DNA of 40,412 nt, taken from a virus. The stretch is taken from positions 1 through 40,412 of IMG/VR virus record IMGVR_UViG_3300035670_000532; one strand, given 5' to 3'. The notes beneath the pieces were generated by a model, which did not search any database, was not told where the DNA came from, and saw nothing but the letters and a program-made list of their open reading frames with translations. A program made the position numbers and the translations under genes. Shown here piece after piece: positions 15,639 through 33,847 of this stretch; the stretch's first letter is position 1, and each line of letters opens with the position of its first letter.

Positions 15639-15867
15639 CTTCCCGCTTAATCTCACCCATGATAACAATTTGCTTCTGATCCATACCTTCAACCTTCTGC
15701 GGGATGTTCTTAGTAGAAATTGCGATGGCAACTTTTATCTTGTTTGCTTCAGTGAGTTTATGAAAATTATCATTGAGATAACTCCAGCATTTCTCAATGA
15801 CGATCTCCCTGACTCCAAGAACTGACTTTACATGACTGACTTCGCTCATAATAAAACCATAGCACAT
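15553..15867 (-). CDS. Candidate terminase small subunit, 104 aa
   Basis: It sits immediately before the large terminase gene and overlaps it by 86 nt. The N-terminal half is helical, and a strand-type C-terminus holds MDQKQIVIMGEIKRED, like the C-terminal part of some small terminases that bind the pac site. The helix-turn-helix is not obvious, so the call rests mostly on place and size. The start may instead be the ATG at 15849 (MSEVSHVKS), since neither start has a clear ribosome binding site. Confidence 0.5.
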   Translation of the reverse strand: MCYGFIMSEVSHVKSVLGVREIVIEKCWSYLNDNFHKLTEANKIKVAIAISTKNIPQKVEGMDQKQIVIMGEIKREDGAPKRYNIGSDLSPENLTAPPETVSDN

Positions 15868-15882
15868 TTTAAAAATTCATGC

Positions 15883-16224
15883 TTATTTCTCCCCCTGTCG
15901 GGACTTAGAGAGTGCTTGGCTCAAGAATGTTACTGCGTTATGAATTGGAGCTGGATAGTCTGGAGTAGGAACGCCAAGCTCATTCAATGATGCTTGAATT
16001 GCCTCCTCAAGCTCGGAAATCCTCTTGAGGTTGTCGCTATGCCATATCTGATAATTCTTTAGAACCTCACTCTCATCCTCCCCCTTGAAAGCTAGAAGGG
16101 CGGTCTTAATGTCCTTGTGAAGCTCCTTGAATCCATCGACTGACATGAACACAGGCAGGAACTTCTTGATGATTCCTTGCGTTAATTCTTCAGCCTCGAC
16201 CTCATCCCGCAGTTTGTTGGTCAT
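15883..16224 (-). CDS. Hypothetical helical protein, 113 aa
   Basis: The protein is acidic and almost wholly alpha-helical, with coiled-coil-like heptads (NLKRISELEEAIQASLNEL), no Cys and no membrane segment. Its ATG overlaps the stop of the upstream 58-residue gene as ATGA. It lies just upstream of the terminase genes. No family was recognised; a packaging-accessory role is possible from position only. Confidence 0.6.
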   Translation of the reverse strand: MTNKLRDEVEAEELTQGIIKKFLPVFMSVDGFKELHKDIKTALLAFKGEDESEVLKNYQIWHSDNLKRISELEEAIQASLNELGVPTPDYPAPIHNAVTFLSQALSKSRQGEK

Positions 16225-16397
16225 AGTTCACGAACCTCCACTTTTCTGACGCTCCATCTGGGAATAAATGCTTCTGGTTTATATGGCATTTTGTGAACGC
16301 TCCAGAATTGGTCGTTGAGGGTGCATAGGTTTCCATCTTCGTCAAACATTCCCCAACCATTCCAAACCTTCCTTTTCTTCCCCGATTTAGTTTTCAT
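16221..16397 (-). CDS. Small hypothetical protein, 58 aa
   Basis: A short frame starts at the ATG at 16397 and ends at a TGA that overlaps the next gene's ATG (ATGA). It also overlaps the end of the Gp37/Gp68-type gene by 11 nt. The translation begins MKTKSGKKRKVWNG and has aromatic and basic residues plus a WSV segment near the C-terminus. It fills the only gap in an otherwise coupled gene run, which supports it as a real gene. No family was recognised. Confidence 0.55.
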   Translation of the reverse strand: MKTKSGKKRKVWNGWGMFDEDGNLCTLNDQFWSVHKMPYKPEAFIPRWSVRKVEVREL

Positions 16398-17073
16398 GGG
16401 ATGGCTCCTTTGGAAATTCTTGAACGAAGTCTTTTACATAATTTCTTAAACTTTGTTTCATGAAAATAGGGCAACCAATTACGCTGGCCCAATCCTGAAC
16501 ATCCGTTATCCATTGATATTTAATAGGTGCTTTCTTTGCCCCTGTCATTGCTCCTAAAATAATCCAAGAAGGACACGCCTCATTTTCGTAATTAACTTTT
16601 AGGGGCCCAAGCATCGGCTCATAAGAAACAAACCACCTCCGAGGTCTTGATGTAAACTTTTCCTCTAACGCACTCATGCGCCATTGATCTTTTTCGCTTG
16701 TGATCGTCACGCCAAGAATTACATTGTCACATGGGATATGTTCAATTTCGCAATCAGGAATGTTCTCAGGCCGTTTTGTTAAAATTTGAAATATGTTGCT
16801 CGGACATTTATTTATAATCTGATAAACCTGCATCCTCCACGCTTGAGCTATTCCTTTACCAAAAAAATCAGAGGTTGAGCAAACGAAAATCCTCTTTCCT
16901 TTGACGCTTGTCGGCTGGTAAAGACGCTCTGGATGAAAAGATGGTTTAAAGGATTTCTTGAACCTCTCATAAACCTTTCTGGCGTAACAATAAGCGCACC
17001 CTTGAAGGCATCCTGTGATAGGATTCCAGGTGTAATCCGTCCATTCGATTTTGCGGGAGCCTTGCTTATTCAT
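16387..17073 (-). CDS. Gp37/Gp68-family (DUF5131) radical SAM-type protein, 228 aa
   Basis: The N-terminus has the family's IEWTDYTWNPITGC followed by a CX3CX2C iron-sulfur motif (C22, C26, C29), as in radical SAM enzymes. Later come ILTKRPENI, VTITSEKD, FVSYEPMLGP and WIILGAMTG, all in the usual order for this phage and plasmid family. Substrate and reaction are not known. I use the ATG at 17073, with GGAGGAAGGAGA just upstream, over a GTG one codon earlier. It is the first gene of the run down to the terminase. Confidence 0.85.
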   Translation of the reverse strand: MNKQGSRKIEWTDYTWNPITGCLQGCAYCYARKVYERFKKSFKPSFHPERLYQPTSVKGKRIFVCSTSDFFGKGIAQAWRMQVYQIINKCPSNIFQILTKRPENIPDCEIEHIPCDNVILGVTITSEKDQWRMSALEEKFTSRPRRWFVSYEPMLGPLKVNYENEACPSWIILGAMTGAKKAPIKYQWITDVQDWASVIGCPIFMKQSLRNYVKDFVQEFPKEPSHEN

Positions 17074-17116
17074 CACACTCTCCTTCCTCCTAAGAGGGGT
17101 TGGGGGTTAGTTTTCT

Positions 17117-17329
17117 TTACAAAATACCACCACCTAAAGCATTGAGAATCCACATAATCGCATACCTGATTCGGTGCTTGCTTATCCAAAGTTTTTTGAC
17201 CTTCTCCGCTTGCTCCGTCCAGCAGGAACAGGAAAGATTTCCGTTCAGGATATAAAACGGGCATCCATCAACAACAGCATCTATCACAGCGATTTGCCCC
17301 ATGAGTTCATGCTCCATATTTTTTTTCAT
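17117..17329 (-). CDS. Small Cys-containing protein, 70 aa
   Basis: The protein starts MKKNMEHELMGQIAV and holds a CSCW pair near the middle, with a hydrophobic C-terminus (RYAIMWILNALGGG). It overlaps the end of the upstream small membrane gene by 23 nt in another frame. A longer frame with an upstream start is open but its extra part coincides with that neighbour. No family was recognised. Confidence 0.45.
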   Translation of the reverse strand: MKKNMEHELMGQIAVIDAVVDGCPFYILNGNLSCSCWTEQAEKVKKLWISKHRIRYAIMWILNALGGGIL

Positions 17330-17507
17330 GGTCAACACGCTCCTTTTCTTTCTGGTCTGCACGCATTTCAAAACCAATAGAGCTAAACATTTCAAGAACC
17401 ATAACAATCCAGAACCAATGCCATTCGAGTTTCCCGAAAGCACATAAGGCAAGGACTGTGGCTTGGAACATATCTCCCGAACAAACAAACACTTTATGGA
17501 ACTTCAT
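17307..17507 (-). CDS. Small membrane protein, 66 aa
   Basis: A central hydrophobic stretch (ATVLALCAFG and WHWFWIVMVLEMF) reads as one or two membrane segments, followed by a charged tail ending KKYGA. The ATG at 17507 follows a GAGGGG-like site. A GTG start three codons earlier is also possible. Upstream in the same frame there is a Cys/Trp-rich stretch without a start codon. No function was recognised. Confidence 0.5.
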   Translation of the reverse strand: MKFHKVFVCSGDMFQATVLALCAFGKLEWHWFWIVMVLEMFSSIGFEMRADQKEKERVDHEKKYGA

Positions 17508-17656
17508 TCCCCTCACCCCATAGTTTTCCCGATGCCATTCGCACCAAGCGCAGGGACACCACCAATGAAATTACGGACACTAAAAAGTTGGACGGCTCGG
17601 TTTTATCTCACCGTACTTGCCACCGATAGTTGTCTCGGACACCGCCCAACACACTC

Positions 17657-18403
17657 TCATAACCCCTCGTATTCCATTATTCTTTTTCCGATCCAAAATA
17701 GTGTTTGCGGTATTTGGCCGTTACCGAGGATCTGCAATCTGTCCAATGCGTAGGCATCCCCATCATCATCTCCACAAACGATATCTTGATACTCTTTCCA
17801 TCGCTCATTAATTTGATAAGCTCCGGCAGGGATAGACTGAAATTGTTTCCAGAGTTTTGGTTTCGGGATACGACTTTCCTCAAAGACTTTACCGTGAAAC
17901 GCAACCGCTTCCCGTCGCTCGCTCTTGGGGTAGGCCAATATCCAGACTCTCTCACGGCGATGGAAGGCTCCGAACCATGAAGCCGGAATAACTTGCCATT
18001 CCGCATCAAACCCGATGGATGCCAAGTCTCCGATAACTTTTCCAAGCCCTCGCCCAAGAAGTGCTGATACGTTCTCCACGATTGCGTAGCGTGGTCGTAA
18101 TGAGCGTATGATTCTGAACTGGTCTCCCCATAATCCCGACCTCGCCCCTGCAATTCCTTCTGGATCGTTGTTGGCGATTGATATGTCTGTGCAAGGGAAT
18201 CCACCGGAAATAACATCAGCTCTTGGCAACTCGTCTGTGTTGACTTCTCTGATATCTTTCCATTTCGGGACATCGGGCCACCTCAGTTTTAATATTTTTT
18301 GACAGTAATCATCAATCTCGACTTGTCCGACAATTTCCATTCCCGCAAGAGTAAGACCGTAATCTCCAAGCCCCCCCCCAGAAAACAACGACAACACTCT
18401 CAT
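17657..18403 (-). CDS. DNA cytosine-C5 methyltransferase, 248 aa
   Basis: The protein transfers a methyl group from SAM to cytosine in DNA. All main motifs are present in order: motif I SLFSGGG (residues 5-11), motif IV GGFPC with catalytic C71, motif VI ENV (110-112), motif VIII RRERV (149-153) and the C-terminal LGNGQIP (226-232). The target-recognition region between about 160 and 215 is short. Phages use such enzymes to protect their DNA from host restriction; no partner restriction enzyme is seen. About 600 nt of this gene can also be read as a second, +1-shifted frame. Confidence 0.92.
   Translation of the reverse strand: MRVLSLFSGGGLGDYGLTLAGMEIVGQVEIDDYCQKILKLRWPDVPKWKDIREVNTDELPRADVISGGFPCTDISIANNDPEGIAGARSGLWGDQFRIIRSLRPRYAIVENVSALLGRGLGKVIGDLASIGFDAEWQVIPASWFGAFHRRERVWILAYPKSERREAVAFHGKVFEESRIPKPKLWKQFQSIPAGAYQINERWKEYQDIVCGDDDGDAYALDRLQILGNGQIPQTLFWIGKRIMEYEGL
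17677..18273 (-). CDS. Alternate-frame ORF inside the methyltransferase gene (doubtful overlapping gene), 198 aa
   Basis: This open frame lies wholly inside the C5-methyltransferase gene, shifted by +1. Its translation contains QSWRTYQHFL, SETWHPSGLMRNGK, ESGYWPTPRASDG and MMMGMPTHWTDC. From memory, motifs of this type (SWRTSQ, FSxTWPRSGMMRNG, WPTP, LMGFPxGWTDL) occur in many phage and plasmid database proteins, often annotated as methyltransferase-related. Here they are exactly the other reading of ENV, RRERVWI and LGNGQIP. It may be a true overlapping gene, or a frame whose family exists in databases only through gene prediction. No ribosome binding site was seen at the first ATG. Confidence 0.25.
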   Translation of the reverse strand: MSRNGKISEKSTQTSCQELMLFPVDSLAQTYQSPTTIQKELQGRGRDYGETSSESYAHYDHATQSWRTYQHFLGEGLEKLSETWHPSGLMRNGKLFRLHGSEPSIAVRESGYWPTPRASDGKRLRFTVKSLRKVVSRNQNSGNNFSLSLPELIKLMSDGKSIKISFVEMMMGMPTHWTDCRSSVTAKYRKHYFGSEKE

Positions 18404-18418
18404 AACGAACTCCTAAGA

Positions 18419-19777
18419 TTAAAGCAGGATCGGAAGCTTCCCGGCCTTGTGTTGCTTGATAAACTCTTTAGCTTCCTTCTCTTGGCCAGGGACGATGTTT
18501 TCTTCGGCAAGCTTTAGAAACTGATCTGCTTCTTGATTGTTCTTCAAAAGCCTGAGGCACGTTGCGATATTCATCAAAATCTTAAATTCCTTCGGAGAAA
18601 TCATCTTCGCCATCACCCAGAGGATTAGCGCTTCCTTGTAGCTTTCGGTGTCCCACCGCTTCATCGCCCGGCAGTGCCATGCCCACCATGCGTGGGGATC
18701 TTCCATGACTGCCATTTCAGTTATGAAATACTCGTCCTTGTAAAGATTGATCGTGTAATACGTCCTTGTCGCGTAGAACGTCAGGAATATAGCTACGATC
18801 ATCGGGAATGGAGCGATCAAATGCGCGAGCGCGAACATCAGGAACACATTCGGGAGCGCCGCGAATCGTTCCGCGATCTCCTGATTTGCTCTCTTAAAAT
18901 TGCAGAATGGCGCAATCGTGATGCACCACGCGAGGAGCGCCCAAGACAGAGTGTTCCACGGAACATAGATCCAGCAGAGGGTCATTCCCGCGAGCGCCAT
19001 AACACCGATCCAGAAGTACCGACAGAGAGAATATGCCTTGTGCTTCATGGACCCGGAACAACTTTGCAAAAAATTATGATAAAAAGTAATACGGAACGGG
19101 ATCAGACAGAGCGTCGTATAAAACCCGAAGGTTTTGATCGCCAGCACGAATTTCTTCGGATGAAACGATAGCTTATCTTCCGTGAAACTCTCAGACCCGG
19201 CTTTATTCTTAACCGCCGTAATGAACTTATGAGCGTGTATCGCCCAAATAACGACCATCACCCCTAAGAGCCACCACTTCGTTGAACCGATGAGGCAAAG
19301 CGGCGCAAGAAACCCTACCGTGAACCAGCTCGCAAAGAATAATGCGACCGGGGCGAGCCAAACGCTGTAGATCGCCGTCAGGATCCCCAAGATCGGGAGA
19401 GCGTAACCTCTACCCCCGGGCCATATCGTTCCCTGATTATTCACAGGGTTTACCGCGTACAGGAGTGCCGCGACAAACGATACGGAGCCAGACCCGAGGG
19501 CGAGGTAAATCATCACACAGATCGCCGTGTGGATTAGGAGCGCGATCAAATGCTCCACTTCTTCAGTAGGCGCCTTATGAATCTTCCCACGACGGATCAC
19601 ATACGAATTATTCTTCAGCTTGATCTGTCCTGTGAACCGGAGCCAGTACTTGTGCCAGCGGTTCTTAAATGCCGGCGGGTTCATGAACACCGCGTAGTCG
19701 TCAGAGACAAACTTAAACCGGAGTGTTTTGAAGTAGAGAAGAAAATTGACGATGATGATCCAGCAGATTTTATCCAT
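18419..19777 (-). CDS. TMTC-like multi-pass membrane glycosyltransferase (GT-C type) with TPR-like tail, 452 aa
   Basis: The N-terminus has one membrane helix followed by FKFVSDDYAVF. An acidic pair (DD) in this place is the catalytic motif of GT-C enzymes. Six or more further hydrophobic segments follow through about residue 340. The segment VNPVNNQGTIWPGGRGYAL is in the place of the conserved loop of TMTC/DUF1736 proteins. The C-terminal 110 residues form helical repeats like TPRs. GT-C enzymes use lipid-linked sugars at the outer face of the membrane. It is the last gene of the glycan cassette and overlaps the radical SAM gene by 8 nt. Confidence 0.65.
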   Translation of the reverse strand: MDKICWIIIVNFLLYFKTLRFKFVSDDYAVFMNPPAFKNRWHKYWLRFTGQIKLKNNSYVIRRGKIHKAPTEEVEHLIALLIHTAICVMIYLALGSGSVSFVAALLYAVNPVNNQGTIWPGGRGYALPILGILTAIYSVWLAPVALFFASWFTVGFLAPLCLIGSTKWWLLGVMVVIWAIHAHKFITAVKNKAGSESFTEDKLSFHPKKFVLAIKTFGFYTTLCLIPFRITFYHNFLQSCSGSMKHKAYSLCRYFWIGVMALAGMTLCWIYVPWNTLSWALLAWCITIAPFCNFKRANQEIAERFAALPNVFLMFALAHLIAPFPMIVAIFLTFYATRTYYTINLYKDEYFITEMAVMEDPHAWWAWHCRAMKRWDTESYKEALILWVMAKMISPKEFKILMNIATCLRLLKNNQEADQFLKLAEENIVPGQEKEAKEFIKQHKAGKLPILL

Positions 19778-20738
19778 TAAATAACCCCGCTTTTATTTGT
19801 CTGAAGAAATATCCAAGATCTTCTTTGCTTTTAATATTTGCGATTTTGTTAATCCAGAACCGGGGCGAGATGGCCGCTTGATAGATTCGTCCAACATACT
19901 TGCGATGATCTTCGTTTCCAGTTCGGTCGCTATCCGTGTAAAAAGATGCTTGCGCTGTTTTGAGGATGCCAAGTTTGAGAAGATCATGAACGCTCCTAAG
20001 AGTTCTCTGCGCATCTTCTTCCGTTTCCCATGGGTATCCGAACATGAACGCCCCGTGACAATCCAGCCCAGCTTGTGCCGCCCGTTCGACCCATCGAATA
20101 TCTTCAACCTTCACCCCCTTGTTTATTTTGTCTAAAGTTTTTTGGTTCGCAGATTCGATCCCAAATAAGATCATCCTAAAACCAATGTCCCGCATCGCCC
20201 GGTAAGGAGCGTCTACCATTCGCATATTGCATCCGAGACGAAACCTAAAACTATTGCCGTTCATTGCAAATATAAATTCATCGAGCCATTCATCCACCGG
20301 GAATGTCCCGGAGTCATCGAATACCTCTTTAAAGCCAAGACGATCTATCTCTTTTAACTCCCGCATCACATCCCATACCGGACGTACCTGCCAGTTGTTA
20401 TTTTTTTCAACACAGAACGAGCATTTTCCCCACCAGCAGCCGTTCGCGACCTGAATGTAAGTCGCGGGCTTATATTTAAAATTGCCGTTATTCTGATATT
20501 TCCTGTCAAACGCTCTTGTCCAAATCCTGTCCGGGGCCGGAAGGTTCACAAAGTTGATGTTCTCCGGTCTTATAATAACCTTGTCAACGGCATCAAGAGG
20601 AACTTGATCCCAATAGACCGTATGCCCCAGGTTCCGGTAATGCTGGGCCTGCATCGCGAGAAGCACAGGATAGATCCATCGCTTTTTCTCGCGCTGTCTT
20701 TGCTGGGCGTATTGATCAGGCCTGTATAAGATCTTCAA
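19770..20738 (-). CDS. Radical SAM enzyme, 322 aa
   Basis: A Cys cluster at residues 101, 106 and 109 (GCWWGKCSFC) would hold the 4Fe-4S cluster. Its spacing is CX4CX2C, one residue longer than the common CX3CX2C; this form also occurs in some cobalamin-type radical SAM groups. FGIESANQKTLDKINKG and HGAFMFGYPWETEED are typical of the barrel and SAM-binding parts. The first 90 residues could be a reduced cobalamin-binding-type region but I cannot prove it. The start is a TTG, overlapping the epimerase gene. The position inside the sugar cassette suggests sugar or lipid modification, but the substrate is unknown. Confidence 0.75.
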   Translation of the reverse strand: MKILYRPDQYAQQRQREKKRWIYPVLLAMQAQHYRNLGHTVYWDQVPLDAVDKVIIRPENINFVNLPAPDRIWTRAFDRKYQNNGNFKYKPATYIQVANGCWWGKCSFCVEKNNNWQVRPVWDVMRELKEIDRLGFKEVFDDSGTFPVDEWLDEFIFAMNGNSFRFRLGCNMRMVDAPYRAMRDIGFRMILFGIESANQKTLDKINKGVKVEDIRWVERAAQAGLDCHGAFMFGYPWETEEDAQRTLRSVHDLLKLGILKTAQASFYTDSDRTGNEDHRKYVGRIYQAAISPRFWINKIANIKSKEDLGYFFRQIKAGLFNG

Positions 20739-21693
20739 GGATGTCGTCCTGTTTCATTTCGTATCTCCATCCTGGATAATGATTCTGAAACTTGCTCACG
20801 TCAGAGATATACCAGATGTGATCCCCGACTCTTGCTTCGTCGATGTAGTCGTATGGAACATTAAAAATCTTCAGCGCTTCTAAGACTGATAAGTTGCAGT
20901 TTTCTCCACCACCCATGTTATAAGCTTCTCCGGGCCTTGGATTTTGGAAGAAATGATCAAAGGCATTGACGAGATCGCGGGCGTGAATGTTATCCCTCAC
21001 CTGCTTCCCCTTGTACCCGTAGATCTTGTAAACCTTCCCGGCTTTCTTGCACTTCACGACGTACGACAGAAACCCATGAAGCTCCACACCGGCGTGCCGG
21101 CCTCCAGTAATGCACCCGCACCGGAAGATCCCGGTTTTCAAGCCAAAGTTCTTCCCATACTCCTGGCACATCAAATCAGCGGCGGTCTTCGACACGCCAA
21201 ACACAGAATGAACGCAGTGGTCAAGCGACATCGATTCGTCAATCCCAGCGATATCTGCGTGATATCGATTTTTTCCTTCGTGGAGCGTGAGCTTGTTCGG
21301 GTTGTCACCGTACACCTTATTCGTGGATGCAAAGATAAATACCGCATGGGGGCATTGTTGCCTTACTCCTTCCAAGAGCAGTAAGGTCCCGACCGCGTTC
21401 ACTCCAAAATCAAGAAGTGGGTTCTTTGCTGACCAATCATGACTTGGTTGTGCCGCGCAGTGGATGATTAAATCAAAGCTTGGGGACAGGATTTTGTGTG
21501 CTTCTGCGATGTCTAGGTCGTGATGGATGTAATTCTCGTGTTCAATCCTGTTCTTCTTCACCGAGCCTTCAGGACCAAAGAACTTCGCCCGCATATCGTT
21601 ATCGATCCCGATCACCTTATGCCCACGATCGAGATAAAACCGACAAGCTTCCGCTCCGACAAGCCCTAATGATCCTGTGACTAATACCTTCAC
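20716..21693 (-). CDS. CDP-tyvelose/paratose epimerase-like NAD-dependent sugar dehydratase/epimerase, 325 aa
   Basis: The N-terminal GxxGxxG (GSLGLVG, residues 7-13) binds NAD. Conserved parts (AAQPSHDW, NKVYGDNPN, IDESMSLDHC, GYKGKQVRDNIH) match the CDP-paratose 2-epimerase-like extended SDR group. The usual catalytic YxxxK is FxxxK here (F165 and K169); from memory many relatives in this subgroup also have Phe, so activity may differ from the textbook enzyme. It probably acts on a nucleotide sugar feeding the neighbouring glycosyltransferases. The GTG start overlaps the preceding stop (GTGA) and follows GGAGG. Confidence 0.85.
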   Translation of the reverse strand: MKVLVTGSLGLVGAEACRFYLDRGHKVIGIDNDMRAKFFGPEGSVKKNRIEHENYIHHDLDIAEAHKILSPSFDLIIHCAAQPSHDWSAKNPLLDFGVNAVGTLLLLEGVRQQCPHAVFIFASTNKVYGDNPNKLTLHEGKNRYHADIAGIDESMSLDHCVHSVFGVSKTAADLMCQEYGKNFGLKTGIFRCGCITGGRHAGVELHGFLSYVVKCKKAGKVYKIYGYKGKQVRDNIHARDLVNAFDHFFQNPRPGEAYNMGGGENCNLSVLEALKIFNVPYDYIDEARVGDHIWYISDVSKFQNHYPGWRYEMKQDDILEDLIQA

Positions 21694-22391
21694 GATGGCC
21701 TCCTTATGAAAAGTCCCTTAAAAAAGTTGATAATGTAAGTGAACACGGACGTGACCCATGCCAGCACCGCGAGCTTGATGAAGTTTCCACGGTGCTTGCC
21801 GTACGTCGCCACCTGCTTCCAGAGAGGCTTAAAAGCTCCCCTTCGGTTGTGATACACAAGAATGGACGGATGATAAAAAATCCCGCCTTTGATCTTCCGG
21901 CAGAAAAGACTGTCTTCTCCAGTGAGATAATTTTCAAAGTCTGTGGCAACATCCTTTTTGACGATCAGATTAAACGTAGGATATTCTGCGACCACCCTCG
22001 GAGCTTTCGGAGTGACCCGGTACGAGTAGGGAAGGAAATTAAAAACGGCATCCGCTATGATCTCATGCGTAGGAGCATCAGCCGGCAGGACGCCTGGGCC
22101 ACAAACGGCATCTGAAATCCGTAAGTACTTTAACGCCTCTTTCAGCCAGTGGAAGGATGGATAAGCATCCGAGTCGATGAACGCAAAGACATCCCCATGC
22201 GCGTGCTTCATCGCCCAGTTCCGTTTTGCAGACGGATACCCCGGGCAGATGTTATCCGGGACGACAATGATCTCTTTGTTCTCTAAAAGAGTTTCGCAGT
22301 ATCCGACACATCTTGCAACGTCATCATCGAGCTTTCGGCACGGGATGATAATGCTAACCAGAGGATCAGACTTTCCGTGAATGTTCTCCAT
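21690..22391 (-). CDS. GT2 family glycosyltransferase, 233 aa
   Basis: The order LVSIIIPCRKLDDD, PSAKRNWAMKHA, GDVFAFIDSDAYP (DxD motif) and TGEDSLFCRKI is that of GT-A fold family 2 transferases. They move a sugar from a nucleotide donor to a growing glycan at the inner face of the membrane. The C-terminus has a hydrophobic stretch (LAVLAWVTSVFTYIINFF) that could anchor it. The start is the ATG at 22391, after GGGGAG. The upstream GT2 gene overlaps it by 109 nt, unusually long. Confidence 0.85.
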   Translation of the reverse strand: MENIHGKSDPLVSIIIPCRKLDDDVARCVGYCETLLENKEIIVVPDNICPGYPSAKRNWAMKHAHGDVFAFIDSDAYPSFHWLKEALKYLRISDAVCGPGVLPADAPTHEIIADAVFNFLPYSYRVTPKAPRVVAEYPTFNLIVKKDVATDFENYLTGEDSLFCRKIKGGIFYHPSILVYHNRRGAFKPLWKQVATYGKHRGNFIKLAVLAWVTSVFTYIINFFKGLFIRRPS

Positions 22392-22912
22392 AACGCTCCC
22401 CAAGACATTTGTTTCGTTATCTCCGCTTCGATTGGAACCTCGATCATCCTAACTCCGCGGCGCTTCGCTCGTGCTAAGATCTCAACATCAAAAATGAAAC
22501 CGTTCATCCTCCAACAGCAGATCGCACTCCTTTTGAACAGTTTAATCCCGGTCTGCGTGTCCACATTAAGCCCGAACAGAAATCGAATAAACATCCTCGA
22601 TAGATGCGTGATCATTTTCCTCAACAGCGGAGCTTTCCATATCCTTTTCGATCCAACTACGATGTCGAAATCTTCGAGGAACGGCAACATCCGTGAAAGC
22701 ATTCTCGCCGGGATATCCCCATCTCCATCGATGAACGCGACCACGTCCCCTTTCGCCTGTAGAAGCGCCTGTCTTATTGCCCATCCCTTCCCCCTCATGT
22801 CCCTGTCGTTGCAAATGACGATCTCGTATGGAATGTAAAGCTTCTCAAGTTGCTCGATGAACGAGTTGATGTTCCTGTCATTATGCGACGGCAGAAGGAT
22901 AGACAGTTTCAC
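22283..22912 (-). CDS. GT2 family glycosyltransferase, DPM1-like, 209 aa
   Basis: The start MKLSILLPSHNDR, the KGWAIRQALLQAKGDVVAFI segment and the acidic DGDGDIP are those of the dolichyl/undecaprenyl-phosphate sugar transferase branch of GT2. LFGLNVDTQTGIKLFKR and GFIFDVEILARAKR are also typical of that branch. Such enzymes make the lipid-phosphate sugar used by GT-C transferases, so this may supply the TMTC-like protein at 18419-19777. That link is an inference. The start is a GTG after AAGGGG. The C-terminal 36 residues overlap the next gene. Confidence 0.85.
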   Translation of the reverse strand: MKLSILLPSHNDRNINSFIEQLEKLYIPYEIVICNDRDMRGKGWAIRQALLQAKGDVVAFIDGDGDIPARMLSRMLPFLEDFDIVVGSKRIWKAPLLRKMITHLSRMFIRFLFGLNVDTQTGIKLFKRSAICCWRMNGFIFDVEILARAKRRGVRMIEVPIEAEITKQMSWGALWRTFTESLILWLALSSRAESSMMTLQDVSDTAKLF

Positions 22913-23687
22913 AGAACCCCTTGATCAGTTGTCTTTGCTTGTTCTGGATCTCAATAAGATTCAATCCCGATGCTAAGGCGTAAGCTTGAAGAAAATCATT
23001 CCCGGTGAACGGAAACTCATTCTCGGTCAGAATCGCAAGGTCCACCCAGTTATCGATCACCCGTCCGGTGGATCCATACACGATCTTTCGGACCCTCACG
23101 GTGTCCCCAGAGGCCGGCAGCTCTTTCCAGATCACGTCCTCGAACATGAACGGCATCAGCTTCGCCCGGAGAGTATTCAGGGCCAACTCAACCTTTTCCA
23201 CGAACGAAAGTTGAATGCCGCAGTCTTTTACCGTCCTGTTGCTAAAACAACTTCTAGTGATCTTCTTGTACGGTTTCGCCCATCCGTCATAGATTAACGT
23301 GTATTCCTCAGAGATCAGTTTTCCTCCCTCCGTGAGCATTTTGTAGGTCTGGTAAGTCTTCCCGGAGTTTGGAAATCCGACGATCAAGGTATCGTCTACG
23401 CATGACGCATGAAGGAACAACTGTCCCACCAAAGCCATCTTCATCACGTCAATTTCTCGGAGCAGGATGTCGAGATTGATCCAACCCTTCAAAATGAACG
23501 GAAGTTTCAGGAACATCGGCGTCACTTGGCACTTGGAAAGCCCGTTCGAGATCAAGATCTGCACCGGGAACGGATACGGTGCTTCAAAATAAAGAGCGTC
23601 CTGATCCTCGAAGTAAACGTACTGCCCGTACTTCTTCCCAATCCCGAGCCTATTGATATTGATTTTTGGTACGACCTGATAGTCCAT
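22881..23687 (-). CDS. HprK-like P-loop protein, 268 aa
   Basis: The phosphate-binding loop GFPNSGKT is at residues 104-111, after LHASCVDDTLIV, an arrangement like the C-terminal domain of HPr kinase and its distant relatives. ISEEYTLIYDG follows in the place of the next acidic motif. Genes of this type are found in surface-glycan and peptide-modification clusters with unknown substrates. It may phosphorylate a sugar, lipid or protein, or be only an ATP-dependent accessory. The start follows AAGGGGG and overlaps the preceding GT gene by 38 nt. Confidence 0.65.
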   Translation of the reverse strand: MDYQVVPKININRLGIGKKYGQYVYFEDQDALYFEAPYPFPVQILISNGLSKCQVTPMFLKLPFILKGWINLDILLREIDVMKMALVGQLFLHASCVDDTLIVGFPNSGKTYQTYKMLTEGGKLISEEYTLIYDGWAKPYKKITRSCFSNRTVKDCGIQLSFVEKVELALNTLRAKLMPFMFEDVIWKELPASGDTVRVRKIVYGSTGRVIDNWVDLAILTENEFPFTGNDFLQAYALASGLNLIEIQNKQRQLIKGFCETVYPSAVA

Positions 23688-24450
23688 CGAACACCCCCTT
23701 CAAAAAGTGCGGGATCAGTGAGAATTTCTTGCGGTACACTAGCGCGGCGCAGTATGCGAAAACCATCGCCGGACTTGAGAAAAGCGCGAGATAGTCCCGG
23801 TGTTTCTTCGCATACAGAATTTTATTGCGCCCCATAAAATATGCGTTCTTCGGACGCCTGAAATCTGGGAGCCACGAGTACGTCTGAGACTTGTGACAAC
23901 ACTGGGCCTGTGGATTCATCACGATCTTAAATCCCATATCCTTTACGCGCCGGCAGATATCTGCCTCGTCAAGATCAATCGGAAAATTAACCTCGTCAAA
24001 CCCGCCAATCCATCGGTGGAGTTGCCTTCGCATCACGAAAGCGTTCGCCACTTCGTTCACCTCATAGGGGAGTTGCGGAAGGCGCTTAACCTTCGCGTTC
24101 GTGAATTTTCCTTCCATGAACCCTGTCGCGTAGTTCCTTACCGACCCACCGTCCGCGACAACCTCCGGGTTTGAGTCGTAACACGCGACAAGACCCATCA
24201 CCCCGATCGAGATGTCGAAATGCTTCAGGATAGCTTCGACCGCTCCCGGTTTCAGGTAGTTATCGTCATCGATGAAAAGGATGTATTTTCCTTTCGCTTG
24301 CAACGCTCCCTTGTTTCTTTTTGCCGCCAGAGGTAGATCCTCATCACGGATGATGAGCTTTTCCATCGACTTAGGAAGCGAGTCGAGAAGCTTCTGGAGA
24401 AGTTCCTCACGGCCTTTTATCGTCGGAATAACTGCAGTAATCGTCGCCAC
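23650..24450 (-). CDS. GT2 family glycosyltransferase, 266 aa
   Basis: MATITAVIPTIKGREELL opens the GT-A fold, followed by PLAAKRNKGALQAKGKYIL, FIDDDNYL (DDD motif) and WIGGFDEVNFPIDLDEADIC, with ED-type acidic residues in the acceptor site. A hydrophobic segment follows at about 220-240. The start codon is GTG. This is one of four GT2 genes in the cassette, which differ enough in sequence to suggest different sugar linkages rather than recent duplication. Confidence 0.85.
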   Translation of the reverse strand: MATITAVIPTIKGREELLQKLLDSLPKSMEKLIIRDEDLPLAAKRNKGALQAKGKYILFIDDDNYLKPGAVEAILKHFDISIGVMGLVACYDSNPEVVADGGSVRNYATGFMEGKFTNAKVKRLPQLPYEVNEVANAFVMRRQLHRWIGGFDEVNFPIDLDEADICRRVKDMGFKIVMNPQAQCCHKSQTYSWLPDFRRPKNAYFMGRNKILYAKKHRDYLALFSSPAMVFAYCAALVYRKKFSLIPHFLKGVFDGLSGRTKNQYQ

Positions 24451-25214
24451 AATAAATATCCCCCCATGAGTGAAAAATACACGAACATCTTGTAATGAAA
24501 CTTTGAATGTCTCTTATGAAACCGAAGCCAGTTTTTCAAGCGGCTTTTAATTTCAAATCGCTCATTGAAGTGACTTCCCTTCTCGACCAAATGCCAGAGG
24601 TGCGCTTTCCTCCGGTACACAAGCTTGTATCCAAGTTTCTTAACTTTAAAAACAACATCGTCGTCGTACCACTCGCATACCCCATCAAAAGACTCGTCAA
24701 ACCCACCGACCTTGCGGATCAGATCGGTTCGCATCGCCCAATTCGTCGCCTCCAAGTGATCGATATCGAAGAAGTTGAAATGCTTCATGTGTTCCATGAA
24801 ATTTGATCCATAGGAAACAGACCCGCATTTATAAATCTTCGCGGGAGCATATGGATCGTTATCAAAGAGCCATTTCAAAAACCAGTTCGGTTTCTCTGCC
24901 CACCTAAGACTATCCCTGTTTTTCCTTAGATTCATCGGAACGAACGTCGGACCCGTTACCCCAGCCACGAATGAATCAAAGTGAAACGGTCTGATCAATT
25001 CCTTCAGCCAGTTCGGAGGGATCTCAACATCGTCATCGATCCTTACAAAATATTTACCCTGTGCGCGGTTCAAAGCGTCGTTCATCGCAGAAACGATGCC
25101 TTTTTTATTCGCATAAATGATCTCAAAGTTCTTATACGTCTGTGCCTTCAGGTCTTTTTCGACCTTAATAGCTTTCTTCAGACTCAGGATGCAAACCGTG
25201 ACAACAGGGTCCAT
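24417..25214 (-). CDS. GT2 family glycosyltransferase, 265 aa
   Basis: The sequence reads MDPVVTVCILSLKKA, then GIVSAMNDALNRAQGKYFVR with IDDDVEIP (DDD motif), and later ATNWAMRTDLIRKVGGFDE and CEWYDDDVVFKVKKLGY. These are donor- and acceptor-binding parts of family GT2. The C-terminus has a basic and aromatic membrane-surface stretch. It overlaps its neighbours on both sides by about 30 nt, as do most genes of the cassette. Confidence 0.85.
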   Translation of the reverse strand: MDPVVTVCILSLKKAIKVEKDLKAQTYKNFEIIYANKKGIVSAMNDALNRAQGKYFVRIDDDVEIPPNWLKELIRPFHFDSFVAGVTGPTFVPMNLRKNRDSLRWAEKPNWFLKWLFDNDPYAPAKIYKCGSVSYGSNFMEHMKHFNFFDIDHLEATNWAMRTDLIRKVGGFDESFDGVCEWYDDDVVFKVKKLGYKLVYRRKAHLWHLVEKGSHFNERFEIKSRLKNWLRFHKRHSKFHYKMFVYFSLMGGYLLWRRLLQLFRR

Positions 25215-26185
25215 ATTTGGTCACCGATAAGTTGAGCGCTGTGGTGTTCTAAAACGTACTCCCGCATTTTCTTCCCCTCTTCCGATCTTGCCATAAGTTC
25301 ATTGATCCCGTGGACCAGATCGTCAGCCGTAGTAAACTGCCAAGGATAATCTCCGTAGACCTGACGCTTTGTAACCAAACATGGTTTTGCGAGGATCGAA
25401 TACTGGAGGAACGGCGAGGTTACGACGTAATCGTTTCCCGGATTATCGCTTCTTAAAGCCACCCCGACAGAACAGGTGTTTAGAATATGCACGATCCGCT
25501 TGAACGGAACCCATCCGGTAAACCTCACATTGTGGGGTGCGATCTTTTCAAGACGCTCCCGGTCCGGGCCATCCCCGACGATCACGAAAAGGATATGAGG
25601 AAGCTTCCTCGCGGCTTCAAGAAGCACGTCCGCGTTCTTGTTTTTTGTGAGTAAGCCGTGGAACATCACAGTCTTATGATCGTCTTTTCTCTCAATGGGA
25701 AAATCATTCGGGTCAACAGGGTCAAGCGCGACATAACATTTCTTCCCTGACTCTTTTTCGATATGCTCGGCCATCGGTTTTGAGATCGAAATTATTCCAT
25801 CAACCAACTTCCATTCCAAAACCTCAAACCAGTGAATCAGGTGATACCAAAAGCCGGTGACGTAATACATCAGGTGAAAATCCCCCATCCGCTTAATGAC
25901 CTTTGATTTGGGGGAGGCGAGCTTCACAAAGGCAGGGTAAAAAGGGAACGAATCATCGCAATAAATGACACTATACCCACGACCCAATACAAGAAACGGA
26001 GCAAAGAAGATCCAAGCAATACTTTTCGCAATTTTATAAGCATTGTGTAACCTCTCAAATTTCTTAAATGTCAGAACGTCCGCTTCCCCGAAGTAAGGGA
26101 ATGCCGCGTTCGTTTCCTTGATTTGATCCTTTGGAAACCTGTGAAGGATCGCTATTTTCTTCTGAGCTTGTACCAACACTGCCAC
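25184..26185 (-). CDS. GT4 family glycosyltransferase, 333 aa
   Basis: The GT-B fold pattern is visible: a Rossmann-like N-terminal half, then VMFHGLLTKNKNADVLLEAA, FVIVGDGPDRERLEKIAP and VRFTGWVPFKRIVHIL, as in family 4 transferases. The C-terminal E-x7-E-type donor motif is less clear. It probably adds the first or a side sugar to the glycan. The start is uncertain: GTG at 26185, a second GTG at 26179 with AAGGA seven bases upstream, and a TTG at 26176 are all possible. Confidence 0.85.
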   Translation of the reverse strand: MAVLVQAQKKIAILHRFPKDQIKETNAAFPYFGEADVLTFKKFERLHNAYKIAKSIAWIFFAPFLVLGRGYSVIYCDDSFPFYPAFVKLASPKSKVIKRMGDFHLMYYVTGFWYHLIHWFEVLEWKLVDGIISISKPMAEHIEKESGKKCYVALDPVDPNDFPIERKDDHKTVMFHGLLTKNKNADVLLEAARKLPHILFVIVGDGPDRERLEKIAPHNVRFTGWVPFKRIVHILNTCSVGVALRSDNPGNDYVVTSPFLQYSILAKPCLVTKRQVYGDYPWQFTTADDLVHGINELMARSEEGKKMREYVLEHHSAQLIGDQIWTLLSRFAS

Positions 26186-26808
26186 GTCCTTGTTTTTTTA
26201 ATCTCGACAACATCAAAGCATTCTCTAGCGAACCTACGAATGTCTTTTTCTCTCCAGATGTAAAGCAGATGTGTCTCCGAAACTTGAAATTCGTTTAGAT
26301 TTTCATAACCAGTAAGAAAAATCTTCATAGAAGCAACTTTCCCGTTGTAGCTCCTCGGCCAAACATAGCGCTCGATCTCTCCTACGTTCCGAATCCTTGA
26401 GCTGAATCCGTCACGGTCAACCTTCTCTTTATCCCAAATATCGAAGATAAAATACCCGCCTTTCTTGATCGGTAAGTTCCCCCACCAGGAATGTTCGGGG
26501 ATGTAATTCATCACGTCAAAAAGAGCGGTCACGCAGTCGTATGGATGTTTCGGAAGGATTGAGTTCCTGATGTCGGCTTGTTGGATTTTGTCCCTAAAAA
26601 TGCTCCGCTGGACCATATGATAAGATCTCTCGATGCCGGCGAGCGTTACTTTCCTCGGGTAATACCTCCAGTAATCGGCGGTTCCGCATCCGATATCGAG
26701 AATACTTTTTGGGTGTTTCGCCCAGCGGTACACGAATTTTATTTCCTTCTCGTACGACTTATCCCTGTTCATGAGATCGTAATATTGAGCGTATTTATCC
26801 GCGAACAT
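26152..26808 (-). CDS. SAM-dependent methyltransferase (class I), 218 aa
   Basis: Motif I is DIGCGTADYWRYY, after a helix FADKYAQYYDLMNRD typical of small methyltransferases in sugar clusters. GGYFIFDIWD is the later acidic-strand motif. It could methylate a sugar in the glycan or cap the chain. I use the ATG at 26808 (MFADKYAQ), which gives the usual family N-terminus and has GGGG upstream; an ATG at 26823 is also open. It overlaps the aminotransferase gene by 14 nt. Confidence 0.8.
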   Translation of the reverse strand: MFADKYAQYYDLMNRDKSYEKEIKFVYRWAKHPKSILDIGCGTADYWRYYPRKVTLAGIERSYHMVQRSIFRDKIQQADIRNSILPKHPYDCVTALFDVMNYIPEHSWWGNLPIKKGGYFIFDIWDKEKVDRDGFSSRIRNVGEIERYVWPRSYNGKVASMKIFLTGYENLNEFQVSETHLLYIWREKDIRRFARECFDVVEIKKTRTWQCWYKLRRK

Positions 26809-27385
26809 AGCTGATATCCCCATGTGTCATTTCAAGATCTTCCGGATCTTTCCTCCCGAATATTCGCCAGTAGTACAAGGACAACCCCTGCGCCGCATCA
26901 GCCGGAGTCATGTAAAAGTTCCATCCCATCAGTTTCACATGGTCTAACTCCTTCGGGATCTCCCGGCGCCCGTCATTCCTCATCACCTGGAACCATTCAA
27001 CGGCGTCCTTGTTGTTAGTCAGAATCATCCCGCCGCGGCCAATCGGAATATGTTTCGCGTAATGGAAAGAGAGGCAGTGGAAAGTTCCGGGAACGTACAT
27101 ATCTTTTTTGAACCTCATCGCACTATCGACGATTGGATACGGCTCTAGGTAATAAGCCCCCCTCCACTTCTTGCTCTTGTATTTCACGGTCCCGCCGGCA
27201 TGGATCACGCTCATCGGAACGCTAAAGTATGTTTTCTTCGGAAGCGTCACCTCTTTCACTTTCAGATACAAACAACTCAAGAATAATGCCGCGGTGCAAC
27301 TTTCAACTGCGATCCCATATTTCGCACCACAGTGCTTCGCTATCGTTTTCTCAAATTCACGAATGACGTTATTTCTCTCGTACAT
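26795..27385 (-). CDS. Short DegT/DnrJ/EryC1-type PLP aminotransferase, 196 aa
   Basis: These enzymes put an amino group on a keto sugar. The PLP lysine is in SFHYAKHIPIGRGG (K111), and the acid that contacts the ring is in PIVDSAM (D87). The N-terminal part (EFEKTIAKHCGAKYGIAVES) also fits. At 196 residues it is half the usual 370-400: it ends after the large-domain core and lacks most of the C-terminal small domain. Since the next gene begins just after, this could be a natural minimal form rather than damage. A GAGG site lies six bases before the ATG. Confidence 0.75.
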   Translation of the reverse strand: MYERNNVIREFEKTIAKHCGAKYGIAVESCTAALFLSCLYLKVKEVTLPKKTYFSVPMSVIHAGGTVKYKSKKWRGAYYLEPYPIVDSAMRFKKDMYVPGTFHCLSFHYAKHIPIGRGGMILTNNKDAVEWFQVMRNDGRREIPKELDHVKLMGWNFYMTPADAAQGLSLYYWRIFGRKDPEDLEMTHGDISYVRG

Positions 27386-27387
27386 AA

Positions 27388-27819
27388 TTACCTCATCTGT
27401 TCGTAAGGAGGCACTTGCTCCTTGATAAATTCCTTGTCCTCAGACACCACGGTGTACTGCCCGGCTTTAAGCTCATAAAAAACCGCATCATCCAACACAC
27501 GGACACCATGACATCCTCGGTATACAAAAACAGCTTCACCGTCCTGCGCTTGAAGACTCCCTAATAAGTTTCCAAACTTGTCATAAATATCCACGGCGAT
27601 TTTTCCTTTAACCACGATAAACGCTTCCTGGGTATACTTAATCGTCCTCGGGTTTAAGATGTGCCGATGAACGCGGAACCCTGTTCCGGCTTTACAACTC
27701 ATCCGCGCCGCCTGTAATGGTTCATGGTTCTCTCCAAACCACTCACGCCCATCTTTAACGTCTTTCATGGATGCTAAAATTGCAAAAACCTCATCACCGT
27801 CAAAAATTTTTTTATTCAT
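27388..27819 (-). CDS. WbuC-type cupin, 143 aa
   Basis: A single cupin barrel with GTGFRVHRHILNPRTIKY as the metal-site stretch, then EAFIVVKGKIAVDIYDKFGN and VFVYRGCHGVRVLDDAVFYELKAG. WbuC family cupins occur in O-antigen clusters with poorly known function. The first His motif is HRH. Start ATG at 27819 overlaps the NinG-like stop (ATGA) and has AAGGAG upstream; a longer frame from 27885 is less likely. It is the first gene of the glycan cassette and joins it to the replication genes without a gap. Confidence 0.75.
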   Translation of the reverse strand: MNKKIFDGDEVFAILASMKDVKDGREWFGENHEPLQAARMSCKAGTGFRVHRHILNPRTIKYTQEAFIVVKGKIAVDIYDKFGNLLGSLQAQDGEAVFVYRGCHGVRVLDDAVFYELKAGQYTVVSEDKEFIKEQVPPYEQMR

Positions 27820-28184
27820 CTTGAATGCTCCTTCACAAGCTTCGTGTAATGCTTTATCAAGACTTCGTATTGCCACCGCTGCCAAGGGTCTTGTTTTATC
27901 GTTCTTCTAACTTCTAAGTTCATAACATAATCAGGACCATATCTCCTATGAAGACCTTTTATGTATCCATGTCTATTCCCTTCTTGGAATATATTGCACC
28001 GGATACATTGTCCATGGACGTTTTGCTCGTTAAAAACCATTGCGGGTTGAGGACATTGAGAAGTTGAATAATAATGCCCGGCCTGCTGGACAGGACCTCC
28101 ACAAGAGATACATCCTTTTGTTCTGTCACGAAGGCGAATGTATTTATTAAAAACAATCTTCAGTTTCGCTTTGAGTTTTCTCAT
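27816..28184 (-). CDS. NinG (Rap)-like recombination protein, 122 aa
   Basis: Four Cys residues form two CxxC pairs (C25/C28 and C60/C63) around a GGPVQQAGHYYST segment, as in the zinc-binding part of lambda NinG/Rap. QPAMVFNEQNVHGQC, RHGYIKGL and a basic C-terminus also fit. NinG family proteins resolve Holliday-like junctions during phage recombination. Start ATG at 28184 overlaps the previous stop (ATGA). Confidence 0.8.
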   Translation of the reverse strand: MRKLKAKLKIVFNKYIRLRDRTKGCISCGGPVQQAGHYYSTSQCPQPAMVFNEQNVHGQCIRCNIFQEGNRHGYIKGLHRRYGPDYVMNLEVRRTIKQDPWQRWQYEVLIKHYTKLVKEHSR

Positions 28185-28474
28185 AATAAAAACTCCTTCT
28201 GCGCTCTGTCCCTTCGCGCGAGTCTCCAAGTGATCGATGTTTTTCCAGTGACCTTGCATTTACGTTTCAGGTCCGGTTCAACAACACCTTCTCTCACCAG
28301 TTCAAACCTGCGAGGTCTGACAAAATTAGGATCTGTGGCATACAGCGCCGCCGCGATCTCCTGATCCGTTACCGGCCCCTGCCTTGCGATCACGTCAAAA
28401 ACTTTCATCTGCCTTTCGGACAAGCCCTTCACCTTTTCTTCGTGATAGCTTATCCGGGAGGTGTCTTGGATCAT
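28181..28474 (-). CDS. Winged-helix DNA-binding protein, 97 aa
   Basis: KGLSERQMKVFDVIARQG and TDQEIAAALYATDPNFVRPRR read as the helices of a winged helix-turn-helix domain; a beta hairpin (KRKCKVTGKTSITW) follows. ATG at 28474 overlaps the stop of the replication gene (ATGA). A longer frame from 28525 begins inside the upstream gene and is less likely. It may control early genes or help replication, but no target is seen. Confidence 0.65.
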   Translation of the reverse strand: MIQDTSRISYHEEKVKGLSERQMKVFDVIARQGPVTDQEIAAALYATDPNFVRPRRFELVREGVVEPDLKRKCKVTGKTSITWRLARRDRAQKEFLL

Positions 28475-30351: not shown

Positions 30352-31064
30352 TTTTTCACCTTCGCGCCTTTCGCCTTGAGAGCCGCGAGGGCTTTGTTGA
30401 ACTGACTTGCCATGATCTTGTCGAGGGATTCAACCTTGAGGTAGGTGAGGAACTTTTCCTCGTTCACGTTGTAGGCTGTGATGTACTCCTTGATCGTGGC
30501 GATCTGCTCGTCTGTGATCGGAGTATCAGCAACAGCGGTCACGCCATCATCGTCCATGTCGTGAGCGGCAAGACCAAGCACCGACAGCAGGGAATACCGC
30601 TGAAGGTACGAGATCGTGCTTCCGATAGCTTGGATAGCGTTCTTGGAGCCGGACGTATCTGCCGGCGCTTGGAGCGTGGTTTCCTGAGAGTGACCCAAAA
30701 CGTGGGTAATCCTGCAAGTCACACCGATCATCCCGTTCTGGTGAGTCACCCAAGACGCGGAAAGCCCGTACTTGGAAAGCTCTTTCGTGATCTTCTCAAC
30801 CACGTTGTAAAGCGAAGCGTGACTGTACTTCGTGTTCCCGAAAGAAACTTTCTTATCCTTCCCGATGTTCGGAGGGTTGGCCTTGAAATCAGCCATGGCC
30901 TGCTGGAACGCTTTCTTCGCCTGGATCGCTTCCCACCGCTCCTGAATATCAAGAAGCTTGGTCAGCTTTTCAAGGTCAGCCCCCTTATCAACGGCTACCC
31001 GGATCAGATCTGCCGGGGAGTTGTCAACCTTCTGCAATTCGTTAGAACTCAAGTGGTTCGTCAT
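30348..31064 (-). CDS. erf: ERF family single-strand annealing recombinase, 238 aa
   Basis: FQQAMADFKANPPNIGKDKK, then KYSHASLYNVVEKITKELSK, then HVLGHSQETTLQAPADTSG and QAIGSTISYLQRYSLLSVLG are the standard Erf motifs of phage P22 and relatives. The last 60 residues are a separate helical part. The protein anneals homologous strands and helps circularise or concatemerise phage DNA. A strong AAAGGAG site precedes the ATG. It works with the adjacent exonuclease. Confidence 0.9.
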   Translation of the reverse strand: MTNHLSSNELQKVDNSPADLIRVAVDKGADLEKLTKLLDIQERWEAIQAKKAFQQAMADFKANPPNIGKDKKVSFGNTKYSHASLYNVVEKITKELSKYGLSASWVTHQNGMIGVTCRITHVLGHSQETTLQAPADTSGSKNAIQAIGSTISYLQRYSLLSVLGLAAHDMDDDGVTAVADTPITDEQIATIKEYITAYNVNEEKFLTYLKVESLDKIMASQFNKALAALKAKGAKVKK

Positions 31065-31257
31065 GATTTTTTTCTCCTTTATTTTCCTTTTGTTTTGGTT
31101 CCCTGATGTTCAGCGTGATGTTCTCCCCTGCCGGGACGTAATCAAGAAAGCAGTTGAGCGACCCGTCCTTGCACTCGTGTGCGATCCCGATCCTCGTCCA
31201 GAAGGATTTTTCTTCTCCGTTCCTTGTTACCTTTTTGATCCCGTAGACCTCTTTCAT
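31042..31257 (-). CDS. Small OB-like hypothetical protein, 71 aa
   Basis: Short beta strands (KEVYGIKKVTRNGEEKSFW, then TRIGIAHECKDGSLN) and a basic/acidic tail suggest a small OB- or SSB-like fold, common just before recombination genes. No family is certain. Its tail overlaps the start of the Erf gene by 23 nt. A TTTCTCC-complement (GGAGAAA) site precedes its start. Confidence 0.5.
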   Translation of the reverse strand: MKEVYGIKKVTRNGEEKSFWTRIGIAHECKDGSLNCFLDYVPAGENITLNIREPKQKENKGEKNHDEPLEF

Positions 31258-31268
31258 TTTTTCTCCTT

Positions 31269-32180: not shown

Positions 32181-32205
32181 GGATCACTTCCTTCGACTCT
32201 GTTTG

Positions 32206-32244: not shown

Positions 32245-32258
32245 ACGATAAGAGTCCA

Positions 32259-32498: not shown

Positions 32499-32539
32499 TT
32501 GTAAATCTAATTCTAGCTGAGAGTCAGTTTTTTGTGTAG

Positions 32540-33842: not shown

Positions 33843-33847
33843 AGTCA

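Follow-up and report, generated by a model that had tools for sequence, protein, structure and literature searches.

Why should a virus with 40 kb of DNA spend about a quarter of it on a multi-enzyme glycan pathway? The question is raised by the IMG/VR virus record IMGVR_UViG_3300035670_000532, whose 40,412 nucleotides, analysed as a whole, are called the window in what follows. Positions 18419-27819 of the window (9,401 nt, 23% of its 40,285 unique bases) hold a cassette of twelve genes on the minus strand, predicted to make sugars, to load them and to transfer them. From the sequence alone, the original prediction had described an operon-like run of eleven genes at exactly these positions. 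Both boundaries are borne out by the ATG of the first gene, which encodes a cupin, and by the end of the last, which encodes a membrane glycosyltransferase of the GT-C type, and the co-oriented, operon-like run stands, but the count is twelve once the GT-C protein is added. Here we find that the cassette is a long-resident, clade-defining core trait of uncultured 37-41-kb podoviruses and not the cargo of one phage.

The cassette and its layout

The twelve genes are given in the order of transcription (GT, glycosyltransferase).

27388..27819, minus strand: WbuC-family cupin metalloprotein; 143 aa from the ATG, the mechanical open reading frame reaching 27885
26795..27385, minus strand: short DegT/DnrJ/EryC1/StrS sugar aminotransferase (DegT); PF01041, E 6e-21; best PDB match a perosamine synthetase
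26152..26823, minus strand: S-adenosylmethionine (SAM) methyltransferase, candidate amino-sugar N-methyltransferase; PF13649, E 1.4e-6
25184..26185, minus strand: GT4 (Glycos_transf_1) glycosyltransferase; PF00534, E 1.4e-11
24417..25214, minus strand: GT2a glycosyltransferase; PF00535, E 1.9e-12
23650..24450, minus strand: GT2b glycosyltransferase; PF00535, E 9e-9
22881..23687, minus strand: HprK/PEPCK-fold P-loop protein (GFPNSGKT), candidate sugar or protein kinase
22283..22912, minus strand: GT2c, predicted DPM1/GtrB-like polyprenyl-phosphate sugar synthase; PHROG 841, GtrB-like
21690..22403, minus strand: GT2d glycosyltransferase, MftF-like, with an ATG at about 22391; PF00535, E 2.9e-9
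20716..21693, minus strand: CDP-tyvelose/paratose-2-epimerase-like short-chain dehydrogenase/reductase (SDR), motif ASTNKVYG
19770..20738, minus strand: radical SAM enzyme, HpnJ/PhpK-like (CWWGKCSFC); PF04055, E 1e-15
18419..19777, minus strand: GT-C membrane glycosyltransferase with C-terminal tetratricopeptide repeats (TPR), a TMTC-like layout

Adjacent genes overlap by 4-121 nt, with a single gap of 2 nt between cupin and DegT. The cupin ATG at 27819 overlaps the stop codon of the upstream NinG gene as ATGA, and the last position of the GT-C gene is 18419. The cassette is placed between the recombination/nin region and the terminase gene terL, on the late-gene strand and about 5 kb from the integrase gene int; a scan for consensus sequences only gave no clear promoter or terminator of its own. 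Its codon use agrees closely with that of the virion genes (r = 0.82, compared to r = 0.53 with the other phage genes).

Conservation across the phage clade

A portal scan of IMG/VR yielded 26 loci, 68-78% identical, and the long records among them were mapped with all window proteins. In seven of the eight long portal-found records (G002, G003, G004, G005, G006, G007 and G017) the cassette stands in the same order before terL, the sole exception being G020, and in G002 the cupin was not found. The full order is also present in G009, a closed genome of 38,450 bp found via the radical SAM enzyme, and in several fragments. The GT-C gene is located upstream of terL in 23 of the 23 TerL clusters that have at least 1.5 kb of upstream sequence, and likewise in all 13 clusters that were found by the portal, without use of GT-C. 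The search for the gene order in other phages showed that the arrangement of cassette, terL and portal recurs in many independent assemblies.

The cassette has diverged roughly in step with the virion genes. Pairwise identity among nine phages averages 50-68% over the ten core genes of the cassette and 55-77% over six virion genes, and the two divergences show a correlation (Mantel r 0.71, p 0.007). Some groups appear in both the cassette and the virion trees, but the trees differ, and descent has therefore been mostly vertical, with some exchange. All cassette genes tested are under strong purifying selection, with nonsynonymous divergence (dN) of 0.04-0.28 and synonymous divergence (dS) above 1.5 or saturated. 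The relatives do not share the fibre, the integrase or most of the replication and lysis genes. In an integrase survey G005 and G007 were found to have a tyrosine integrase, while in the closed G009, which retains the cassette, no integrase of the tyrosine or the serine type was detected. Inheritance alongside the virion genes suggests that redecorating the cell surface is at the core of the lifestyle in this virus family.

A constant core with variable modules

The slot of the DegT gene is occupied by two forms. The short one, of 196 aa and about half the usual length, lacks its C-terminal third as well as some of the middle, and it retains the lysine motif SFHYAKHIPIGRGG that binds pyridoxal phosphate. 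It is found in five of the nine compared genomes (the window, G002, G003, G004 and G007), and a full-length form, 27-29% identical, in the other four (G005, G006, G009 and G017). The short DegT of the window is 77-82% identical to those of G003, G004 and G007, compared to about 57% for the remaining cassette, suggesting that this one gene, which specifies the sugar, has been exchanged; its dN is about 0.09-0.17, with dS of 2-3 or saturated. The cupin is present in seven of the nine genomes, and some relatives have a second SDR gene inserted after the HprK-like gene or extra SDR genes upstream.

In an outer set of relatives (G020, L106, L107, L109, L110 and L112) the GT-C protein is 39-46% identical and its gene still stands before terL; most of them retain the radical SAM gene and/or GT2c, and the other cassette genes are replaced. 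G020 and L109 have in common an alternative set composed of an amine-oxidase-like gene, three GT2s, an SDR, the radical SAM enzyme, GT-C and GT2c. Homologs are also found in G011, a 47-kb phage with a different major capsid protein and TerL: GT2c (46%), GT2d (53%), the radical SAM enzyme (50%), the epimerase (38%) and GT-C (29%). They lie at three separate places, with GT-C among the virion/tail genes, and their dispersal in this unrelated phage indicates that the right half of the cassette in the window acts as one functional set, linked or not.

We also noted that G011 (L058-L060) has a B12/radical SAM gene and an ATP-grasp gene beside further GTs, that G017 has a sulfotransferase-like gene within its tail module (L075 14391-15041), and that the GT-C reading frame of G015 (L105 5342-7224) is seemingly in two parts, possibly by a frameshift or an insertion.

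Predicted enzymes of the cassette

The families named in the original prediction hold for those proteins that were tested by Pfam and NCBIfam profiles, PDB sequences, or AlphaFold models with fold search, the WbuC assignment falling just below its threshold: the cupin scores 38.5 bits (E 9.5e-10) against TIGR04366 of NCBIfam, for which the curated cut-off is 42.

The GT-C protein matched no GT-C family in Pfam, NCBIfam or PHROGs. In its AlphaFold model (pLDDT 77.5) the TPR occupy residues ~350-447, and Foldseek by itself placed TPR proteins ahead of GT-C folds, whereas VIA-align put GT-C enzymes at the top: Pmt4 (Z 16.8), ALG12 (16.5), ArnT (14.4) and PglB (13.8). According to the model, the protein thus has the GT-C superfamily fold. 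It shares this fold with the Pmt, ALG12, ArnT and PglB enzymes and has a TPR tail like that of TMTC proteins, but the sequence identity to these enzymes is just 7-12%. A VSDD motif is conserved, with S25-D26-D27 invariant, as the acidic motif of the first outer loop.

The sole PDB match of GT2c is the dolichol-phosphate-mannose synthase 5mlz, and it is weak (E 6e-4). GT2d matches TIGR03965 with E 4.8e-17, below the cut-off, and the radical SAM enzyme matches HpnJ of NCBIfam with E 4e-18, also below the cut-off; no B12 domain was matched in the latter. The PDB matches of the methyltransferase include the sugar N,N-dimethyltransferases 3bxo and 6m81 (weak, E 0.001-0.005). In the PDB the epimerase is matched best by a pair of CDP-tyvelose 2-epimerases (E 2e-36 and 9e-34), compared to 1e-19 for the best 4,6-dehydratase, and it has TNK at the place of the catalytic TDE of the dehydratases. 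It is clearly nearer to the CDP-tyvelose 2-epimerases than to the 4,6-dehydratases or GalE, and its substrate is predicted from this similarity. The HprK-like protein matched no Pfam or NCBIfam family. Its AlphaFold model (pLDDT 80.6) matches PEPCK and HprK with a VIA Z of about 10 and a root-mean-square deviation of 3.9-4.5 over 192-209 aligned residues; as modelled, it is a P-loop protein of the HprK/PEPCK fold, and a role as a kinase is a candidate one.

Genome and neighbouring genes

The first and last 127 bases of the record are identical (a direct terminal repeat), and the window is therefore a closed, complete genome. It has a podovirus gene set with T7-like portal/adaptor, major head protein, tail proteins and terminase, as well as the recombination proteins ERF and YqaJ. 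The portal proteins of isolates are only about 30% identical, those of Pelagibacter phage HTVC010P and others. The phage had been called temperate; the tyrosine integrase agrees with this label, but a repressor was not identified in the window. The features around the cassette are as follows.

14259..15731, minus strand: terminase large subunit (terL), by PHROG 2 and synteny; conserved downstream neighbour of the cassette
15883..18403, minus strand: accessory block between cassette and terL, with DNA cytosine methylase, DUF5131 and small open reading frames
27816..28259, minus strand: NinG-like protein (PF05766, E 1e-21); upstream neighbour, ATGA-coupled to the cupin
32425-32499, minus strand: tRNA-Thr (CGT), the CCA not being encoded; close to the integrase and a candidate for the attP core
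32988-33848: tyrosine integrase, near tRNA-Thr

The accessory block at 15883..18403 is outside the conserved cassette and is missing from all 16 related records compared. Its cytosine methylase has 248 aa, and the Pfam domain was matched over the first half only. Elsewhere in the window, the C-terminal part of 31607-32266 (minus strand) resembles a SleB-type cell-wall hydrolase by eye, with no Pfam match, and the start of this frame is perhaps over-extended upstream.

Which cells do these phages infect?

A scan of 84,980 genomes with the portal profile returned just four contigs of metagenome-assembled genomes (MAGs), in four unrelated lineages. These lineages (Methanoperedens, an unnamed bacterium, Gastranaerophilales and Saccharibacteria) are not claimed as hosts, the four contigs resembling binned phage contigs or fragments. 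The tRNA-Thr core of the phage was not found in IMG/VR, and in three of the four MAGs it was matched at just 76-78%. Among 380 genomes of the phylum of G018 there was no further portal match, and the GT-C matches were weak only. In G003 and G004 a gene for an outer-membrane beta-barrel-like protein with a signal peptide directly precedes the cupin (L042 354-1046 and L044 17786-18421); because of these genes, the host is probably diderm, i.e. Gram-negative.

One of the four MAGs bears on a published host assignment. The groundwater virus vir_325 was described with a glycosyltransferase and a nucleotide-sugar dehydratase identical to those of the MAG nzgw24, and the two genes were treated as auxiliary metabolic genes in common with an archaeal host (PMC10980836). 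G017 is a 40.8-kb phage contig with the full cassette in this same Methanoperedens nzgw24 MAG (JAHFDG010000034.1; L066/L074-L076), and is therefore probably vir_325. Since the phage contig sits inside the MAG, the published link between vir_325 and Methanoperedens may be circular. Neither the cassette nor its conservation nor a possible binning artefact is described in that paper (PMC10980836).

Proposed function and alternatives

An operon-like, phage-specified glycan pathway of unusual size, with a lipid-phosphate-sugar synthase and an outer-face GT-C protein, had been proposed for the locus, and our analysis supports this. What would such a pathway be for? On balance, and with modest confidence, we favour a lipid-phosphate-sugar and GT-C pathway, fixed in the clade, that remodels the Gram-negative envelope during infection, limiting re-adsorption and superinfection. 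DegT, the cupin, the tyvelose-type epimerase, the methyltransferase and the radical SAM enzyme would make and tailor an unusual sugar in the cytoplasm from nucleotide-4-keto sugars of the host, probably an amino or N-methyl deoxy sugar. GT4 and three of the GT2s would extend the glycan, and GT2c would load one sugar onto polyprenyl phosphate. GT-C fold enzymes act at the extracytoplasmic face, and the phage protein, working on the outer side of the inner membrane, would transfer this sugar to an exported protein or an envelope glycan, with flippase and ligase functions of the host complementing the cassette enzymes. Expressed alongside the late genes, the pathway would alter the surface of the doomed cell (and of the lysogen, if expressed there), so that progeny and competitors would not adsorb to the infected cell or its debris. 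The biochemical steps of this proposal are taken from knowledge of the enzyme families, while the genes, folds, conservation, order and linkage come from the analysis itself.

Some points weigh against this reading. The infection stage is deduced from gene position, codon use and a single closed relative in which no integrase was detected. GtrA (PF04138), Wzx (PF01943) and the initiating transferase (PF02397) were unmatched in the window and seven relatives, although control genomes did give matches in the GtrA search; with no flippase or initiating transferase found, the pathway must draw on functions of the host or on proteins that went unrecognised. The beta-barrel Pfam scores from which a diderm host is deduced are under the curated cut-off, and the signal peptides were called by a heuristic.

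Could the cassette instead act in the lysogen? In classical lysogenic conversion a prophage-expressed cassette would alter the surface glycan of the host and exclude other phages, as gtrABC does, and masking of the phage receptor after lysogeny was also one of the uses that the original prediction had proposed. The tyrosine integrases of the window phage, G005 and G007 would fit, as would a GtrB-like GT2c with GT-C in the role of GtrC. But gtrABC-type conversion genes usually lie near att, and some 5 kb separate the cassette from int, its direction being that of the nin and late genes; GtrA was found in 0 of 8 records, and receptor masking in the lysogen likewise loses ground to the virion-like codon use and to the retention of the cassette in the closed G009, in which no integrase was detected. 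We regard lysogenic conversion as possible but rather unlikely, and the late-gene direction, the codon use and G009 lead us to favour use during infection. The original prediction also named a coating of the cell or the virion. If the cassette decorated a capsid or tail protein, its inheritance with the virion genes, always beside terL, would be explained, and G011 has its GT-C among virion/tail genes. However, GT-C enzymes act outside the cytoplasm by family knowledge and virions assemble within it, so that coating of the virion is hard to reconcile with the position of the active site, and decoration in the cytoplasm needs no twelve-gene pathway with a lipid-phosphate-sugar synthase. In spite of a precedent in mycobacteriophages, as cited in PMC12619734, we consider virion glycosylation unlikely.

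A further alternative is that the phage itself encodes the acceptor, i.e. that GT-C glycosylates large LamG/fibre-like proteins with a Sec signal, which would act at the surface or be late-added fibres. The window encodes such a protein of 1,224 aa (35568-39242, minus strand) with a LamG domain and the N-terminus MKKTIIFLSLMLLCSPAFA/GK, a Sec-type signal peptide; signal-peptide fibre/LamG-like proteins occur also in G002, G005, G007 and G009, and GT-C is similar to the protein O-mannosyltransferases (Pmt4), its TPR tail being TMTC-like. Conservation of the cassette does not extend to the LamG/fibre-like proteins, their signal peptides were called by a heuristic and glycosylation sites are not predictable, which makes this version improbable in our view. 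Only slightly better placed, and still doubtful, is a broader form: a core, late-expressed surface-glycosylation system with GT-C fixed and sugar modules exchangeable, acting on exported lectin/fibre or surface proteins of the phage. If true, it would mean a virus-built layer of surface glycoprotein on the infected cell, replacing borrowed O-antigen tailoring. As observations on the same proteins, a Sec signal peptide is odd for a virion fibre such as 35568-39242 might be; a LamG domain is internal to a big tail protein in the window (4979-8590, minus strand) and several relatives, and in G007 it forms a protein of its own that has a signal peptide (31030-31758; L052 11030-11758). Hypermodification of DNA with sugars against restriction was considered and rejected as highly improbable. 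The cytosine methylase and DUF5131 adjoin the cassette, and phage GTs are able to glycosylate DNA (as cited in PMC12619734), but the methylase block is missing from all cassette-bearing relatives compared, no base hydroxymethylase or related enzyme was among the proteins scanned, and a membrane GT-C and a DPM1-like GT2 fit poorly. That the cassette is a recently captured bacterial lipopolysaccharide (LPS) locus or a chimeric assembly is scarcely credible: all its families are typical of bacterial surface-glycan loci, but the same order at the same place recurs in many independent records, three with terminal repeats (two of these being relatives of the window phage), and the codon use matches the virion genes. 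A chimeric join, which would have undone the original prediction, is in practice excluded, and recent capture is ruled out with it by the synteny in independent assemblies.

Comparison with known systems

The usual view of surface-glycan genes in phages is of small, mobile cargo. In the window phage a glycan pathway of many enzymes takes up about a quarter of the 40-kb genome and is conserved in the manner of a virion module, its transferase core constant and its sugar modules interchangeable. Whether viruses build a new surface glycan in lytic growth as a core strategy becomes testable, and three unusual sugar enzymes can be tested together: the half-length DegT, the HprK-like protein and the stand-alone radical SAM enzyme. 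In INPHARED (50,697 GenBank phages) the HprK-like protein, GT-C and GT2d had no match and the radical SAM enzyme had partial ones of 26-33% only; PHROGs held none for GT-C, the radical SAM enzyme, GT2d or the HprK-like protein, and our literature search found no paper describing this cassette.

A close likeness is to GtrABC of P22/Sf-type phages (PMC2629481), which are also temperate carriers of podovirus size and combine a GtrB-like GT2 with a polytopic outer-face transferase. In contrast to the three genes of GtrABC, the cassette has twelve, without GtrA, and adds sugar synthesis, four further GTs, the HprK-like protein and the radical SAM enzyme. It is located before terL and not near int/att, and it is fixed in the clade, whereas gtrABC has been described as highly mobile (PMC2629481). 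The three-component GT136 pathway of extracytoplasmic glycosylation, for which one Caudoviricetes example was reported (PMC11127046), likewise uses a lipid-linked donor and a GT-C acting in the periplasm, with the seroconversion logic of GT2 plus GT-C. The cassette differs in that neither GtrA nor a Polysacc_synt flippase was detected, in a donor synthase that is DPM1-like and not a phosphoribose synthase, and in having far more accessory genes. From a Wzx/Wzy O-antigen locus it is set apart by Wzx (PF01943) and the initiating phosphoglycosyltransferase (PF02397), which are found in 0 of 8 records. Pelagimyophages and cyanomyophages also carry glycosyltransferases and nucleotide-sugar enzymes, and their LPS/O-chain genes are believed to change the O-chain of the host and so to counter co-infection (PMC7029224); these genes lie in hypervariable host-recognition islands or in scattered pairs and triplets, while the cassette is ordered, constant and carried by small podoviruses. 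Phage serotype-conversion genes, LPS genes of marine myophages and virion glycosylation are thus already known (PMC2629481, PMC7029224, PMC12619734), and what is distinctive here is the size of the cassette, its fixation and its layout of a constant core with variable modules.

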